Below are positions 345 through 23,142 of a stretch of DNA of 64,000 nucleotides, in pieces. The DNA lies in NCBI GenBank assembly GCA_020073005.1, contig JAIQFX010000030.1:1-64000 (forward strand), given 5' to 3'. Below the pieces are notes generated by a model. That model was not told the DNA's origin, made no database searches, and saw only the letters and a list, made by a program, of their open reading frames with translations. Source of the DNA: Terriglobia bacterium (lineage in GTDB: Bacteria; Acidobacteriota; Vicinamibacteria; Vicinamibacterales; CAVVIG01). Position 1 is the stretch's first letter, and the number at the start of each line of letters is the position of its first letter. The position numbers and the translations under genes were made by a program.

Positions 345-1433
345 ATGCATCAAGTCATGGCGACGCAACCGGGCGGCGAGCCCCGGGTAGACCCGGCCCT
401 CGTGCCCTTTCTGCACGCGTCCGGTGAGGACGCTGAGCGGTGCCTGGCGGACCTGCTGGCCGGCGAGACCGACCGGACCATCCGCGCCATCGTCTCGCGC
501 ACGCTGTGCGGCAGCTCACGCGGCGGGCGCACGCAGGCGCTCGAAACCGAGGACGTGCGCGCGGACGTAGTCGTCCACCTGCTGTCGCGGCTGCGCCGTC
601 TGAAGACGCAGGCCGATCCGACCGCGATCGAAAACTTCCCGGCGTACGTCGCCGCCATCGCGTATCGCACCTGCTACACGCATCTGCGGCGCCTGTATCC
701 GCAGCGCGCGCGCCTGAAGAACCGGTTGCGCTACGCGCTGACCTACGACGCGGATCTCACGCTCGAACAGGACGCGCTCGGCATCTGGCGCTGCGGGCTG
801 ACGAAGTGGATCGAGCGCGACGCGCCGCTGATGCGCGCCGACGACACGATGCAGCGCTTCCGCAGCGGTCCCTCGGCGTTCGCGCGCGACATCGTGACCG
901 ATCCCGTCGGCTGTGGACTGAGCATCGCCGACACGATGAAGCTGCTGCTCGATCGCATCGGCGAGCCCGTGGATTTCGATGTGCTGGTCGACGCGATCGG
1001 CGGCGTGCTGGGCGTGGACAGCGCGGCTCCGATTTGGTCGGTCGCAGACGCCGCGGACGCCGCGCTCGAGGTCGCCGACCCCGCCGGATCGATCGCCGAC
1101 ACCCTCGTCCACCGGCAGTTCCTGGCGCGGCTCTGGACCGAGGTCCGCGAGCTGCCGGTCAATCAGCGCGTCGCGATCCTGCTCAACCTGCGCGACGAGG
1201 ATGGCATGAGCGCGCTCCCGCTGCTGCCGATGACGGGCATCGCGACGATTCGGCAGATTGCCGAAGTCCTCGCGATGTCGGCCGTCGACCTGGCCGCGCT
1301 CTGGCGGGATCTCCCGCTCGACGATGCGCGGATTGCCGCGCGGCTGCAGCTGAAACGGCAGCAGGTCATCAACCTGCGGAAATCCGGCAGAGAGCGGCTC
1401 GGGCGCCGGATGGCACGGTTTGGAGGACGATGA
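345..1433 (+). CDS. Sigma-70-like RNA polymerase sigma factor, divergent
   Basis: A 362-residue protein, longer than a standard ECF sigma factor (about 180-200 aa). Residues about 60-130 resemble a sigma region 2, with paired aromatic and basic residues (NFPAYVAAIAYRTCYTHLRR). The C-terminal 35 residues form a region-4-like helix-turn-helix (ARLQLKRQQVINLRKSGRERL). The middle of about 150 residues is unassigned. The gene lies 54 bp upstream of a membrane zinc-finger protein of anti-sigma type, which supports the sigma role. It should recruit RNA polymerase to a stress or envelope regulon. A second ATG four codons later (357) is an equally good start, and no clear ribosome binding site separates the two. 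The family call is moderately firm; the regulon is unknown. Confidence 0.7.
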   Translation: MHQVMATQPGGEPRVDPALVPFLHASGEDAERCLADLLAGETDRTIRAIVSRTLCGSSRGGRTQALETEDVRADVVVHLLSRLRRLKTQADPTAIENFPAYVAAIAYRTCYTHLRRLYPQRARLKNRLRYALTYDADLTLEQDALGIWRCGLTKWIERDAPLMRADDTMQRFRSGPSAFARDIVTDPVGCGLSIADTMKLLLDRIGEPVDFDVLVDAIGGVLGVDSAAPIWSVADAADAALEVADPAGSIADTLVHRQFLARLWTEVRELPVNQRVAILLNLRDEDGMSALPLLPMTGIATIRQIAEVLAMSAVDLAALWRDLPLDDARIAARLQLKRQQVINLRKSGRERLGRRMARFGGR

Positions 1434-1487
1434 ACGCGCGCTGGTAATACCGACTGGCGTTTGGACGACGAGGAGTGTGAGGGCTAA

Positions 1488-2504
1488 TTGACCGACCACC
1501 CGACCGATTTCGAGCTGGAACGTTACGCGCACGGCACCTTGAGCGCCGCCGACCTGCTGCGCGTCGACGACCATCTCGCGATCTGCCCGCTGTGCCGCCG
1601 GCGGGCGCTGGAAGTGGCCGATGGCTCACGGCGGCTGGCCAGCACTGTTCACGCCGTGCGCCAGGATCTCTCGGGCGCCGGGGCGGGTTTCGCGCAGAGC
1701 GCCGAGGTCGTGCCGTTCGCGCCGCGGCGATTCACGCTCGGACGCGTGACGGGCTGGGGTCCTGTGATTGCTGTCGCCGCGGTGGCCGCGACCGCGGTCT
1801 TCGCCGTGAACATCCTCTGGGGCACGCGGACGGCGCCGGTCAGCGCGCCGGCGCCCTCGACGCCCGTGGAAAACGCCGCGCCGCAAGTCGCGCGCGCGGA
1901 CACGTTGACGCCGGCGGAACGCGCGCTCGTCGACAGCGCAGCGGCGGACGGCCGGCTGCCGCGGGCGGCGGCGCTCGAGCAGGTCGCGTCGACGACGGGT
2001 GTATTGATGGGCACTCCGGCGCACGACTCGACGTTCGGACCGACAGAGCCGCGCGGCGTGGTGGTCGACGCGGATCGGCCGACGCTGATCTGGAGCTCGG
2101 CCGGGGCCGGCGCCCAGTATCAAGTGTCGGTGTTCGACGAGGCGTTCAATCTCGTCACGTCGAGCGGGTGGCAGGCGGAAACACAGTGGCGCGTCGCGCG
2201 CCCGCTGACGCGCGGCAAGTCGTTTTCCTGGCAGGTGAAGGCTCGAGTGGGCGACGCGACGATCACGGCGCCGGCGCCGCCTCAGCCGGAAGCGAGGTTC
2301 CTCGTGACGACCGTTGAACAGAACGCGCAGCTCGCGGCGATGCGCAAGCGCGCCGGCGATTCACATGTGGCGCTGGCCGTGCTTCTCGCGCAGGCTGGAG
2401 TGCTCGATGAAGCCGAGCGCGAGCTGACGCGCGCGAGCGCGGAGAATCCGAATTCGTCCGCGGTGAAGCGACTGCAGGCGAGCCTCAGCGAGTTGCGGCG
2501 CTAA
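1488..2504 (+). CDS. Membrane-bound zinc-finger anti-sigma factor
   Basis: A 338-residue single-pass membrane protein. The cytoplasmic N-terminus carries a zinc anti-sigma motif H29-x3-C33-x2-C36 (HLAICPLC). A transmembrane helix covers about residues 90-111. A periplasmic region of some 225 residues follows, with a beta-rich middle (about 180-270) and a final TPR-like helix pair. Proteins of this kind hold a sigma factor inactive until cleaved or displaced. The partner is presumably the sigma-like protein encoded just upstream. The start is TTG, preceded by GAGG-type purines. Its 3' end overlaps the convergent CHAT gene by 4 bp. The large periplasmic part suggests that it senses an envelope signal or is cut there. 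Confidence 0.75.
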   Translation: MTDHPTDFELERYAHGTLSAADLLRVDDHLAICPLCRRRALEVADGSRRLASTVHAVRQDLSGAGAGFAQSAEVVPFAPRRFTLGRVTGWGPVIAVAAVAATAVFAVNILWGTRTAPVSAPAPSTPVENAAPQVARADTLTPAERALVDSAAADGRLPRAAALEQVASTTGVLMGTPAHDSTFGPTEPRGVVVDADRPTLIWSSAGAGAQYQVSVFDEAFNLVTSSGWQAETQWRVARPLTRGKSFSWQVKARVGDATITAPAPPQPEARFLVTTVEQNAQLAAMRKRAGDSHVALAVLLAQAGVLDEAERELTRASAENPNSSAVKRLQASLSELRR

Positions 2505-5263
2505 TACCCCGCGCCGACGGTCACCAACCCCGCCCAATAGAACGGATGCCGGTAGCGCGGATCGCGCCGCAACTCGAGCGCGGCCGCGCGCAGATTCTCG
2601 GCGACGTTGCCGTCGCCGCGCAGCAGCGACGCGCGCAGCCGCCGGTGCAACGCGAGCGTCAGCGTCGTCGCGCTCGCCGAGTCGAGCTGCCACAAGCTGA
2701 CGACGGTCGTCGGCGTGCCGGCCGCGAAGAACGCCCACGCGAGACCGATCACGCCCTCGCCCGCGCCGATCTTCCCGCGCGCCGTATCGCACGCGGTCAG
2801 GACGGCGACCGCGGCGTCGAGCTTGAGCGACAGGATCTCCCACGCCTCGAGGCGGCCATCGGTCTGAGCCTCCTGCTGCCCGGCCTTCGTGAGCTGCAGG
2901 AACGAGTACATCGGATTGGTGTCGTCGACGATGCCGTGCGTGGCGAAGTGCAGAACGGTCGCGTCGGCCGTCGCGGCTCTCACGCGCGGCTCGCTGGCGG
3001 CGCCGCCGACGAAGGCTTTGGTGCGGCCGGCGCCGTACAGCGTCGTGAGCGCGGTCGCTTCGGCCTTTGCGTCGGGAATCCGCGGGAGATCGCTCTCCGG
3101 GTCGGCCGCGACGAGCAGGCGCGGCGCGCCGCTGCGCGAGGCGAGCGCCGTGCGGCGCCCTTGCATCGCGTGGAGCACGGCGATCGACGGCGCGTACGCC
3201 ACCGACGCATCATCGATCACGGCGCGGCCCGCCGCCGGCGCGAGCGCTTCGAACGGAACGGTCCACAGCGCATCGTCCGGAATGACCATGAGACGCGTGC
3301 GGCCCGCGAGCGCGTCGCGCGCCGGCTTCAGCAGCAGGTCGTACAAGGCGCGCGCGTCGTCCTGAAAATCCAGCGCGCGCGATCCGAGCTTGCGGCTGAA
3401 GCTTCCGGCCTTGGCCGCGAGCGATTCCTTCGTGACCGGCGAGACGAATTCCGACACGACCGGCGCGGCGCCGGATGCCGCGTCCCCGCGCGTGAGGACG
3501 AAGATGTACGTCACCGTGTCCGTCACCACGTACTCGACGATGGCGGTGCGGGCGTCGGACAGGAGATCGCCGGCCGATCGCACCGGATCGTCGTCGATGC
3601 CGCCGCGCGCGAGCCGTCGGACGGTGTAGCGCGCATCGAGCGAGTCGCGGAACTCGTCGCTCATCAGGCGCGCCCTGCGCAGCCGATCGGTGGCCTCCTC
3701 GACGGCGCCTGCCGGCGCCGCCTGACCGCGTCCGACCGTCCGGAGACGCGCGGTGGCCGTGACGACGTCCTGCTCGAGCGCGCGTTCCTTCTCGCGCTCG
3801 GCGGGCGTCAGCGGCCGGACCGCGACGCTGCCGCCGTCGAGCAAGTCGGCGAGCGCGCGGGCGCGGACGTGTTCGGCCACGCTGAGCGCCTCGGCGGGAC
3901 GATGGGCGTCGACGAGGAGCCCGGTCAGGTTGTGGTACGGCTCGAGCTTGTCCAGCAGGAAGCGCTGGCGCGACTGCGGTCCGCCGGCGACTTCGGCGCG
4001 CACCGCTTCGATCGTTTCGATCGCGTCGCGATACGACCGCTCGGCGCGCGCCGTCTCGTGCAGCGCCCGCAGGATGTTGCCGCCCGTCGTCTGCGGCTGC
4101 CACAGGAATTCGTTCTGCTTCTCCTCCCGCGCCACGGCGATCGCGCGCTCCGCCGACGCGAGACCCTCCGCGAACTTGCCGTCGTCGGCGAGCATGTGCG
4201 CGATGGCGTCGAGGCTCTCGACCGCGCCGGGCAGATCCTTGATCGCTTCCCGGATCGCGAGGCTGCGCCGGTAGCCCTCCAGCGCTTCGTCTTTGTTCTC
4301 GCGGCGGCGAATCGACGCGACGTTGTAGAGACCCGTCGCGATGCCGATGCGATTGCCCGTGCGCTCGTTGATGGCGACCTGCCGCTGGAAGTAGTCGAGC
4401 GCGCGATCGAACTGTCCCAGTTCGCGGTACACGGTGCCAATGTTGCCGAGCTGGTTCGCCATCGGCAGCGTTTGATCGCCGGCCTTCTCGAGGACGCTCA
4501 GTGCGCGTGTGTAGTACTCGAGCGCCAGGTCGTAATTGCCCTGCTCGTCGTGGATGACGCCGATGTTGTTGAGCGTGACGGTGATGTCGGCGGCATCGGA
4601 TGTCTGCTGCTTCAACGTCACGGCTTTTTGATAGCTGTCCAGCGCCTCGCGGTACCGACCCTGGCGCCAGTAGATGAGGCCGATGTTGTTGAACACGCGC
4701 CCCAGCGTCTGTCGATCGCCGGCCGCATCGGCGATGGCCATCGCGCGCTGATTCGCGGCGAGCGCCCGGTCGTAGTCGCTCGTCAGCCGGTAGACGATGG
4801 CGAGGTTGGCGAGCGCGGACGCGATCACGCCGTCGTTGTGAATGGCTTCCCCGGTGGCGAGCGCCCGGTTGAGCGCGTCGAGGGCGGCGGCATATTCGGC
4901 GCGCTGTCCGGGAATCGACGAGTACACGATGAGCGCCATCGCCGCCCCGCGGCGGTCGCCGCGGCGCTCGGCGATATCGTGCAGCGCGAAGTACGCGCGC
5001 GTCGCGTCGTCGGCGCGGCCCATGCGGCGCAGCTCGGCCGCGCGCACGTTGAGCGCCTGCTGCAGTTCTTCAGTGAGAGCCGCGGGCTGCGGGTCGAGCA
5101 ACGCGCCGCGGGCCTCCGGCGTCGAGGCGTCCACCAGGCGCGCGACGAGATCCGCTTTGGCGGACGCCGGCCCCGCAGGCGCCTGCGGCATCGCGCCGCT
5201 CAGCGAGACGCTCGCCAGACAGAGAAACACGACCGCCCGCCACCACCAGGTCACGCGCCGCAT
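2501..5263 (-). CDS. Secreted TPR-CHAT caspase-like protease
   Basis: A 920-residue protein with an N-terminal Sec signal peptide (about residues 1-28). At least seven TPR units follow over about residues 60-430, then a helical linker, then a C-terminal CHAT domain of the caspase/separase clan. The catalytic dyad is present: His about 776 in HFATHG and Cys about 825 in LTACDT, with the family's downstream glycine-rich GEGVIGLAWAF block and SLWQ strand. CHAT proteases are usually held inactive until their TPR region receives a signal. The gene is convergent with the sigma/anti-sigma pair. The signal peptide places it on the periplasmic side, where the anti-sigma protein has its large domain, so that protein is a candidate substrate (inference). 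Confidence 0.88.
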   Translation of the reverse strand: MRRVTWWWRAVVFLCLASVSLSGAMPQAPAGPASAKADLVARLVDASTPEARGALLDPQPAALTEELQQALNVRAAELRRMGRADDATRAYFALHDIAERRGDRRGAAMALIVYSSIPGQRAEYAAALDALNRALATGEAIHNDGVIASALANLAIVYRLTSDYDRALAANQRAMAIADAAGDRQTLGRVFNNIGLIYWRQGRYREALDSYQKAVTLKQQTSDAADITVTLNNIGVIHDEQGNYDLALEYYTRALSVLEKAGDQTLPMANQLGNIGTVYRELGQFDRALDYFQRQVAINERTGNRIGIATGLYNVASIRRRENKDEALEGYRRSLAIREAIKDLPGAVESLDAIAHMLADDGKFAEGLASAERAIAVAREEKQNEFLWQPQTTGGNILRALHETARAERSYRDAIETIEAVRAEVAGGPQSRQRFLLDKLEPYHNLTGLLVDAHRPAEALSVAEHVRARALADLLDGGSVAVRPLTPAEREKERALEQDVVTATARLRTVGRGQAAPAGAVEEATDRLRRARLMSDEFRDSLDARYTVRRLARGGIDDDPVRSAGDLLSDARTAIVEYVVTDTVTYIFVLTRGDAASGAAPVVSEFVSPVTKESLAAKAGSFSRKLGSRALDFQDDARALYDLLLKPARDALAGRTRLMVIPDDALWTVPFEALAPAAGRAVIDDASVAYAPSIAVLHAMQGRRTALASRSGAPRLLVAADPESDLPRIPDAKAEATALTTLYGAGRTKAFVGGAASEPRVRAATADATVLHFATHGIVDDTNPMYSFLQLTKAGQQEAQTDGRLEAWEILSLKLDAAVAVLTACDTARGKIGAGEGVIGLAWAFFAAGTPTTVVSLWQLDSASATTLTLALHRRLRASLLRGDGNVAENLRAAALELRRDPRYRHPFYWAGLVTVGAGY

Positions 5264-5317: not shown

Positions 5318-5440
5318 AGAGACGTAAGAAAGTGCAAGGGCCTGATGTCAACCGGTGGGCAACTGCTGCGTACTTTCCGGGTGAATGACGTAAATCAGGC
5401 CGAAACGACGACGGCAAGAACGTTGCACCGTGGATTTCTC

Positions 5441-5863
5441 ATGGTCTCCACAGCCGACGACCTGCGTCAACGTTTGAAGCGATTCGCATTCGGCGTCATC
5501 AATCTTGTCAAGAGCCTGTCGAGGAATACGGCCACTGATGCCATCGCGCGTCAGTTGATTCGGTCGGGCACAGGGGTTGCCGCGAACCATCGAGGCGCGT
5601 GCCGTGCAAGGTCCAGGCGGGAATTCATCGCCCGGCTCGCCGTCGCGCTCGAAGAAGCCGACGAGACCGAGCTCTGGCTGGAAACCCTGATGATCTGCGA
5701 CCTCGCGGCGAAGGCCGCCGTCGCGCCGCTCTATGCCGAGGCGCGCGAAATACGCGCGATCCTTTCCGCTTCAGTCAGGACTGCGCGCGCCCGCGACAAA
5801 TCCCGTCAATCTCTTCCAACTCCTCAAATCCCCAAATCCTCAAATCCCCAAATCGAGATATAG
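5441..5863 (+). CDS. Four-helix-bundle protein (23S rRNA intervening-sequence protein family)
   Basis: A 140-residue protein from the ATG at 5441. It has the family signature: RQLIRSGTGVAANHRGACRA, then ARSRREFIARLAVALEEADE, then TELWLETL. Members form a four-helix bundle and were first found encoded in insertions inside 23S rRNA genes; their role is not established. The related Avd protein binds the reverse transcriptase of diversity-generating retroelements. No rRNA or reverse transcriptase lies nearby here. The gene is bracketed by a 32-bp inverted repeat (5286-5317 and 5823-5854), and the last 14 or so codons are made of the right arm itself, giving an unstructured SSNPQ-type tail. An in-frame upstream start at 5345 exists but lies outside the conserved domain. 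Confidence 0.85.
   Translation: MVSTADDLRQRLKRFAFGVINLVKSLSRNTATDAIARQLIRSGTGVAANHRGACRARSRREFIARLAVALEEADETELWLETLMICDLAAKAAVAPLYAEAREIRAILSASVRTARARDKSRQSLPTPQIPKSSNPQIEI
5823..5854. repeat. Right arm of inverted repeat, overlapping a gene end
   Basis: Reverse complement of 5286-5317 with one mismatch. It encodes the C-terminal tail of the four-helix-bundle protein and ends 7 bp before the probable -10 box of the next gene. Confidence 0.9.
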
Positions 5864-17963: not shown

Positions 17964-18071
17964 GAGAATTAGGAATTAAGAATTAGGAATTAGGAATTAG
18001 GAATTAGGAATTAGGAATGCTTTCGACCAACCTGAATTACATTCTGAATTCTTAATTCCGAATTCATAATT
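17964..18071. repeat. AGGAATT heptamer array with inverted right half
   Basis: About seven AGGAATT units run from 17964 to 18018. An opposite-sense, less regular half (CTGAATTCTTAATTCC) lies at 18033-18068. It sits between the convergent DsbA-like and rhomboid genes and could fold as a long AT-rich hairpin, possibly a bidirectional terminator. Confidence 0.8.
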
Positions 18072-23018: not shown

Positions 23019-23050
23019 GTGTATGCCTGCTTAGACACCGACTTTGAGGT

Positions 23051-23142
23051 TGTAGCGCGAGCCTGCGAGTTCTTGTAACGCGAGCCTGCGATCCCTTGTA
23101 GCGCGAGCCTGCGATCCCTTGTAGCGCGAGCCTTTCAGGCGA
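23051..23142. repeat. Four tandem copies of a 23-bp repeat
   Basis: Copies start at 23051, 23074, 23097 and 23120 (unit TGTAGCGCGAGCCTGCGATCCCT, truncated or changed in the last). The TGTAGCGCGAGCCT core resembles the REP-like sequences at 42085 and 50344. It lies in the divergent promoter region of two genes. Confidence 0.88.

Follow-up and report, generated by a model that had tools for sequence, protein, structure and literature searches.

We describe here a three-gene module that opens the window, by which we mean the whole 64-kb stretch of DNA that was analysed. Within its first 4.9 kb lie the genes of a sigma-like protein, an anti-sigma factor and a TPR-CHAT protease. The window is contig C100 of a 5.86-Mb genome in 179 contigs, which is placed among acidobacterial relatives. 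The trio is a real, conserved module and is well supported as such. Judging from the sequences, it is rather probable that this is a transmembrane signalling module, in which the exported CHAT protease would cut the ectodomain of the anti-sigma factor and the sigma factor would be freed.

Conservation and Linkage of the Three Genes

A profile of the sigma-like protein was searched against 84,980 species genomes, and the counts over 75 loci refer to the 74 loci found plus the window. The 74 further loci belong nearly all to Acidobacteriota, some to Verrucomicrobiota, and single records to Armatimonadota and Abditibacteriota. The record of locus L048 is titled Acidimicrobiia and matches genome G152 of the window's class; the title may be wrong. 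The anti-sigma gene stands directly after the sigma gene in 66 of the 75 loci, and several of the others are clipped by contig ends. The CHAT gene adjoins this pair in 49 of the 75 loci. The preliminary description of this DNA had asked whether the neighbourhood is conserved, and it turned out that the CHAT gene is linked to the pair, in several phyla, in 32 of the 38 loci whose flanks both reach at least 3 kb. In the 49 loci, the CHAT gene is convergent and downstream in 30, downstream in the same direction in 10, upstream in the same direction in 5, and upstream and divergent in 4 (counts after correction for the tandem double module of L048). Along the sigma tree, the gene order switches among these four about 12 times; the tree was built quickly and many of its branches are weak, which makes the figure rough. 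Thus, the trio stays together despite reshuffling. In every module locus read, the anti-sigma factor and the CHAT protein are encoded by two separate genes and are not fused. One contig (L048 and L127, G152:C109) carries a tandem pair of sigma/anti-sigma/CHAT modules.

As a whole-genome control, we used the 193 genomes of the window's class and counted a sigma match as strong at E <= 1e-60. Strong matches were found in 11 of these genomes, in 12 copies, and the same genomes hold from 1 to 19 CHAT genes each. A CHAT gene lies within 6 kb of the sigma gene in 11 of the 12 copies, while about 0.13 CHATs are expected by chance, so the linkage is well beyond chance. With a profile of the module CHAT, scores in the 193 genomes split into a group of 320-445 bits and a group of 275 bits or less. 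All 10 genomes with a CHAT of 320-445 bits are among the 11 with sigma, and in the eleventh, G146, the CHAT is clipped by a contig end. The profile included some of the scored sequences; three of the 10 genomes (G004, G105 and G068) were not in it. Where the sigma locus has no adjoining CHAT gene, a CHAT was found elsewhere in 13 of the 13 genomes examined, and Terriglobus albidus has a single CHAT, module-like (347.6 bits), which stands alone away from the pair. Thus, presence is matched even without linkage. Chance clustering is ruled out by the linkage far over expectation, the order changes on the sigma tree and the matched presence.

Genes and Encoded Proteins

All three genes lie where the preliminary description had placed them. 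The features of the module are as follows.

345-1433, + strand: predicted extracytoplasmic function (ECF)-like sigma factor, 362 residues, long insert between regions 2 and 4 (profile and model)
1488-2504, + strand: predicted transmembrane zinc-finger anti-sigma factor, 338 residues (profile and model)
1488-1598, + strand: cytoplasmic zinc-binding anti-sigma domain, H29/C33/C36 (zf-HC2 match, motif)
1758-1823, + strand: transmembrane helix, anti-sigma residues 91-112 (prediction)
1824-1910, + strand: putative periplasmic linker, anti-sigma residues 113-141, candidate cleavage region (low model confidence, lowest conservation)
2040-2306, + strand: fibronectin-III (FnIII)/Ig-like ectodomain, anti-sigma residues 185-273 (model; most conserved part of the ectodomain)
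2313-2498, + strand: C-terminal TPR-like hairpins, anti-sigma residues 276-337 (Pfam TPR match and model)
2501-5263, - strand: TPR-CHAT cysteine protease, predicted exported, 920 residues, convergent to the anti-sigma gene (Pfam, signal peptide)
5192-5263, - strand: predicted Sec signal peptide, CHAT protein residues 1-24 (by eye and hydropathy)
2513-3361, - strand: CHAT protease domain, residues 635-917 (Pfam)
2936-2938, - strand: codon of catalytic His776 (residue check)
2789-2791, - strand: codon of catalytic Cys825, the sole cysteine outside the signal peptide (residue check)

No Pfam family matched the sigma-like protein of the window. With the NCBIfam model sigma70-ECF (TIGR02937) it gave 24.4 bits, below the cut-off, as a weak match along its length. 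The relative in locus L082 reached 46.7 bits against a cut-off of 42.9, and the match covers both ends (regions sigma2 and sigma4); Sigma70_r2 was detected in 24 of 67 relatives. The AlphaFold2 model of the window protein has a predicted local distance difference test score (pLDDT) of 88.5, and the top Foldseek matches of the model are mostly sigma factors, with weak E-values. Profile and model together identify the protein as a predicted divergent ECF-like sigma factor. Between sigma2 and sigma4 lie about 100 inserted residues that form additional structure, in place of the short linker by which ECF (group IV) factors are defined, and because of this insert we file the protein only as a divergent ECF-like subfamily. 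At profile positions 175-220, it shows a weak similarity (E 0.002) to the HARE-HTH domain known from RNA polymerase delta; such a domain within a sigma factor is unusual. The same genome holds the long sigma gene once more, broken off at a contig end (L134, G000:C103:1-666, - strand).

The open reading frame of the anti-sigma factor has a TTG start with GAGGG just before it. Pfam reported zf-HC2 at the cut-off and a TPR match near the C-terminus, and a search of PDB chains with the anti-sigma profile matched the structures of ChrR, DdvA and RsiW. The zinc ligands H29, C33 and C36 form an H-x3-C-x2-C motif in the N-terminal helical domain, which is kept in nearly all relatives; the window copy has a single zinc domain and the relatives frequently have two. 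The single transmembrane segment leaves 226 residues beyond it, which agrees with the zinc-finger anti-sigma factor with a periplasmic part of about 225 residues that had been proposed before. All anti-sigma factors checked have a transmembrane segment with about 130-315 residues on its outer side (the shortest is clipped by a contig end), and 56 of 65 ectodomains contain no Cys. The AlphaFold2 model (pLDDT 84) places in order the helical zinc domain, the linker 113-141, two short helices, an FnIII-like sandwich (185-273) and two TPR-like hairpins. In the linker, the pLDDT is low and the conservation is the lowest in the whole protein. The two genes are adjacent in 66 of the 75 loci, and the anti-sigma protein is a putative inhibitor that may bind its sigma.

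The CHAT gene is convergent to the anti-sigma gene, and the stop codons of the two genes overlap. Its product matches Pfam CHAT (PF12770) with 201 bits and contains many TPRs. The signal peptide and the intact His/Cys dyad noted earlier were both found: the N-terminus is hydrophobic (MRRVTWWWRAVVFLCLASVSLSGA), and His776 and Cys825 are present. Both residues are kept in 44 of the 44 module CHATs of checkable length. According to hydropathy, a hydrophobic N-terminus of the signal-peptide type is present in almost every module CHAT, and these proteins contain on average 2.7 Cys per 780 residues, compared to 8.1 at the rate of the sigma factor. Hydropathy and the low Cys content predict that the module CHAT is apparently exported across the inner membrane. 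Some module CHATs carry extra N-terminal domains, namely PDZ (L050), SnoaL-like (L049) and a weak PPC (L054). In L050 (10408-14070), the PDZ domain (45.7 bits) stands ahead of the TPRs and recalls DegS. The PDZ and SnoaL-like domains are better candidates for the sensor than the TPR, to which the preliminary description had assigned the sensing of envelope stress.

Two related TPR-CHATs outside the module have lost the dyad. In these conserved pseudo-proteases of two related genomes (L022:5254-8850 and L023:6616-10134), His and Cys are replaced, and apparent ABC transporter and alanyl-tRNA synthetase genes lie near them. The CHAT matches of genomes G056 and G046 were rejected as module members, as they have no sigma/anti-sigma pair and have lost His and Cys.

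A Second Operon and the Wider Pairing of ECF and CHAT Genes

The same genome contains a second operon of an ECF sigma factor, a zinc-finger transmembrane anti-sigma factor and a TPR-CHAT, all in one direction (L015, G000:C163, 2692-6848, - strand). Its sigma is an ordinary ECF factor of 187 residues. The anti-sigma factor is short, of the zinc-finger transmembrane kind, and has the same type of ectodomain (hhalign E 5e-20 to the profile of the window family), and the TPR-CHAT has C-terminal transmembrane segments and a domain that resembles the FnIII-like one (E 2e-5, probability 76%). We also inspected some 40 other CHAT loci of the class. In roughly one third of them, an ECF-like sigma as well as a zinc-finger transmembrane protein is encoded next to CHAT, and Pfam sigma regions were confirmed in 5 of 8 sampled sigma-like neighbours. 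Thus, the pairing of CHAT with ECF extends beyond this sigma family.

Proposed Mechanism and Alternative Explanations

The preliminary description had treated the three genes as one unit with a periplasmic protease. This core claim is well supported by the linkage across several phyla, the four gene orders, the matched presence, the dyads kept in 44 of 44 proteins, the signal peptides, the low Cys content and the C163 operon. Cleavage of the anti-sigma ectodomain by CHAT with release of the sigma factor, which it had also proposed, is the best reading of these data. Precedents are PDB 8ROT, where anti-sigma factor and CHAT share one polypeptide, and Csx29, which cleaves the CASP-sigma inhibitor (PMC10028731). 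We infer the following course, from contact of the proteins and direction of action to the signal, the cut and the later proteolysis. The zinc-finger domain of the anti-sigma factor would hold sigma at the cytoplasmic face of the inner membrane. The protein would cross the membrane once, with its linker, FnIII-like domain and TPR-like hairpins facing the periplasm, where the exported TPR-CHAT would meet the ectodomain. A signal, which may be an unfolded envelope protein, a ligand or a partner, would be read by the TPR and N-terminal region and would make the caspase-like site active. CHAT would then cut the ectodomain, probably in the membrane-proximal linker (site-1 cleavage), after which intramembrane and cytoplasmic proteases would free the sigma factor. 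The likely cut site is the linker 113-141, which is next to the membrane, poorly conserved and, in the model, flexible.

Several observations weigh against this mechanism. There is no conserved cut site in the candidate linker. Craspases likewise cut their partner at non-conserved sites (PMC11106740), and the missing motif is thus no obstacle to cleavage. A few sigma/anti-sigma pairs have no adjacent CHAT gene; where it does not adjoin, no substitute protease was found among the other large genes scanned. A shared sigma/CHAT promoter motif was not found, as own-locus scores were no better than cross-locus ones in what is a weak test. The three proteins diverge in a correlated manner (r about 0.5), which is what linkage alone would give and is weak evidence.

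CHAT could also be an output of the sigma factor and not its trigger, if the pair senses the envelope otherwise and the protease acts on other envelope proteins. Genes neighbouring a sigma factor are often under its control, CHAT forms its own transcription unit, often on the opposite strand, and exported surface proteins (DUF1800/DUF1501, NHL propellers, outer-membrane barrels) recur near the module. We regard this explanation as unlikely, given that the module-type CHAT goes together with this sigma also where the genes are not linked and that in the solved relative 8ROT CHAT belongs to the anti-sigma chain itself; the promoter test, weak as it is, does not favour it either. The TPR-like hairpins at the end of the anti-sigma factor would also suit a protease that signals by binding, its TPR docking on the ectodomain and shifting its conformation with no cut, and so would the reportedly incomplete active site of DdvA. 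This is quite improbable: His and Cys are kept in all 44 module CHATs over deep divergence and are lost in related CHATs outside the module.

The conserved ectodomain with its protein-binding folds would also fit the reverse direction, in which it keeps the protease in check, and the liberated sigma signals that the protease is now free to act on another substrate. Such a scheme requires an extra substrate, we know of no precedent for it among characterised CHAT/sigma systems, and we consider it very improbable. Finally, the genes could be neighbours by shared ancestry or chance with no functional tie, since many of the 74 loci are related to each other and CHAT genes can abound (up to 23 matches per genome). 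The four gene orders, the matched presence, the co-occurrence of unlinked genes and the independent C163 operon with another ECF sigma make this hardly credible. 

It is possible, though somewhat doubtful, that exported TPR-CHATs as a general class serve ECF signalling as site-1 proteases, both in Acidobacteriota and in phyla close to them, and thus form a caspase-like counterpart of DegS. They would carry exchangeable N-terminal sensors (PDZ, SnoaL-like or none) and act in trans on membrane anti-sigma factors that belong to more than one ECF family; the CRISPR Craspase and DdvA, with its fused parts, would then be special cases.

Neighbouring Genes

DUF1800 genes, mostly with DUF1501, lie near the module in six loci (L048, L053, L076, L086, L094 and L037) from several branches of the sigma tree. 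Homologous genes, NHL-type in up to six, lie near it in L042, L066, L077, L080, L089 and L039; NHL/teneurin-type propeller proteins are encoded in all four of these that were scanned (L042, L066, L080 and L039), and in L042 the propeller gene occupies the position of CHAT. Outer-membrane barrel genes are near the module in seven loci. These recurrent exported surface proteins fit an envelope role of the module. A role in anti-phage defence was rejected, as PADLOC reported nothing beyond a generic TPR model for the three proteins. We found no array of CRISPR-like repeats in the 64-kb window; the preliminary description had likewise spoken of parts without CRISPR. In the window, a gene of a 23S rRNA-intervening-sequence four-helix protein adjoins the CHAT gene (5345-5863, + strand), and short tandem repeats with units of 14 and 23 bases lie at 17966-18066 and 23050-23133.

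Comparison with Known Systems

The nearest solved relative is a single chain of 991 residues (PDB 8ROT/8RW5), in which the anti-sigma profile matches residues 7-104 (E 4.5e-7) and the CHAT profile residues 836-974 (E 3e-6). The neighbouring PDB entry 8RLZ is named anti-sigma factor DdvA, and the 8ROT/8RW5 chain is most probably the DdvA protein that is paired with DdvS in Myxococcus xanthus (Bernal-Bernal et al. 2024, Sci Adv eadp1053). Like 8ROT/DdvA, the module has an N-terminal zinc-finger anti-sigma domain with a transmembrane segment, a C-terminal CHAT and an ECF sigma partner. In contrast to it, the module splits these parts: the protease is a separate, predicted exported protein with the full His/Cys dyad, whereas the active site of DdvA is reportedly incomplete, and the anti-sigma factor carries an FnIII-TPR ectodomain of its own. 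The DdvS/DdvA work is cited in a review (PMC12288465).

In the type III-E system Craspase/CASP, which comprises Cas7-11 and Csx29, Csx29 cuts Csx30, which relieves CASP-sigma (PMC10028731). Csx29-type CHATs are the remaining solved relatives in the structure search with the CHAT profile. Both there and, as we suppose, in the module, a TPR-CHAT protease acts on the inhibitor of a sigma factor. However, Craspase is RNA-guided and CRISPR-encoded, whereas the module has no CRISPR context, its protease bears a predicted signal peptide, and its anti-sigma factor is a zinc-finger membrane protein. The anti-sigma profile matched no chain named Csx30 at E <= 1; its matches are zinc-finger anti-sigma structures. 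The analogy with Craspase drawn in the preliminary description suits the logic of the module well, but the closest relative with a solved structure, the fused anti-sigma/TPR-CHAT 8ROT, was not named there.

The module shares with DegS-RseA-RseP and RsiW an inner-membrane anti-sigma factor, an outer protease and an ECF-type sigma, and the CHAT of L050 has a PDZ domain as DegS does; its protease, however, is a caspase-like CHAT and not a serine protease. For ECF54, genes of CHAT, subtilase or carboxypeptidase have been described in the gene context, proteolytic control was proposed (PMC8999054), and the group is described as having no anti-sigma factor. A CHAT gene near an ECF sigma is common to both, whereas the sigma family of the module has an anti-sigma factor in 66 of 75 loci.

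A split module of sigma, anti-sigma and exported TPR-CHAT was described in no paper that we found in the open-access literature, with most subscription papers and preprints outside the search; it is probably, though not certainly, new. We class it as a three-gene form of CHAT-controlled ECF signalling whose protease is intact and apparently exported. As a conserved unit in many soil acidobacteria, it suggests a widespread, apparently undescribed way of switching genes by an inhibitor cut from outside the membrane. The module names a candidate substrate for dozens of bacterial CHAT proteases outside CRISPR and cell-death systems. If the proposed mechanism is true, caspase-like proteases take part in ordinary bacterial gene regulation across a membrane, and the sigma branch of Craspase, with no evolutionary order implied, would appear as one form of a more general scheme and not as a CRISPR invention.

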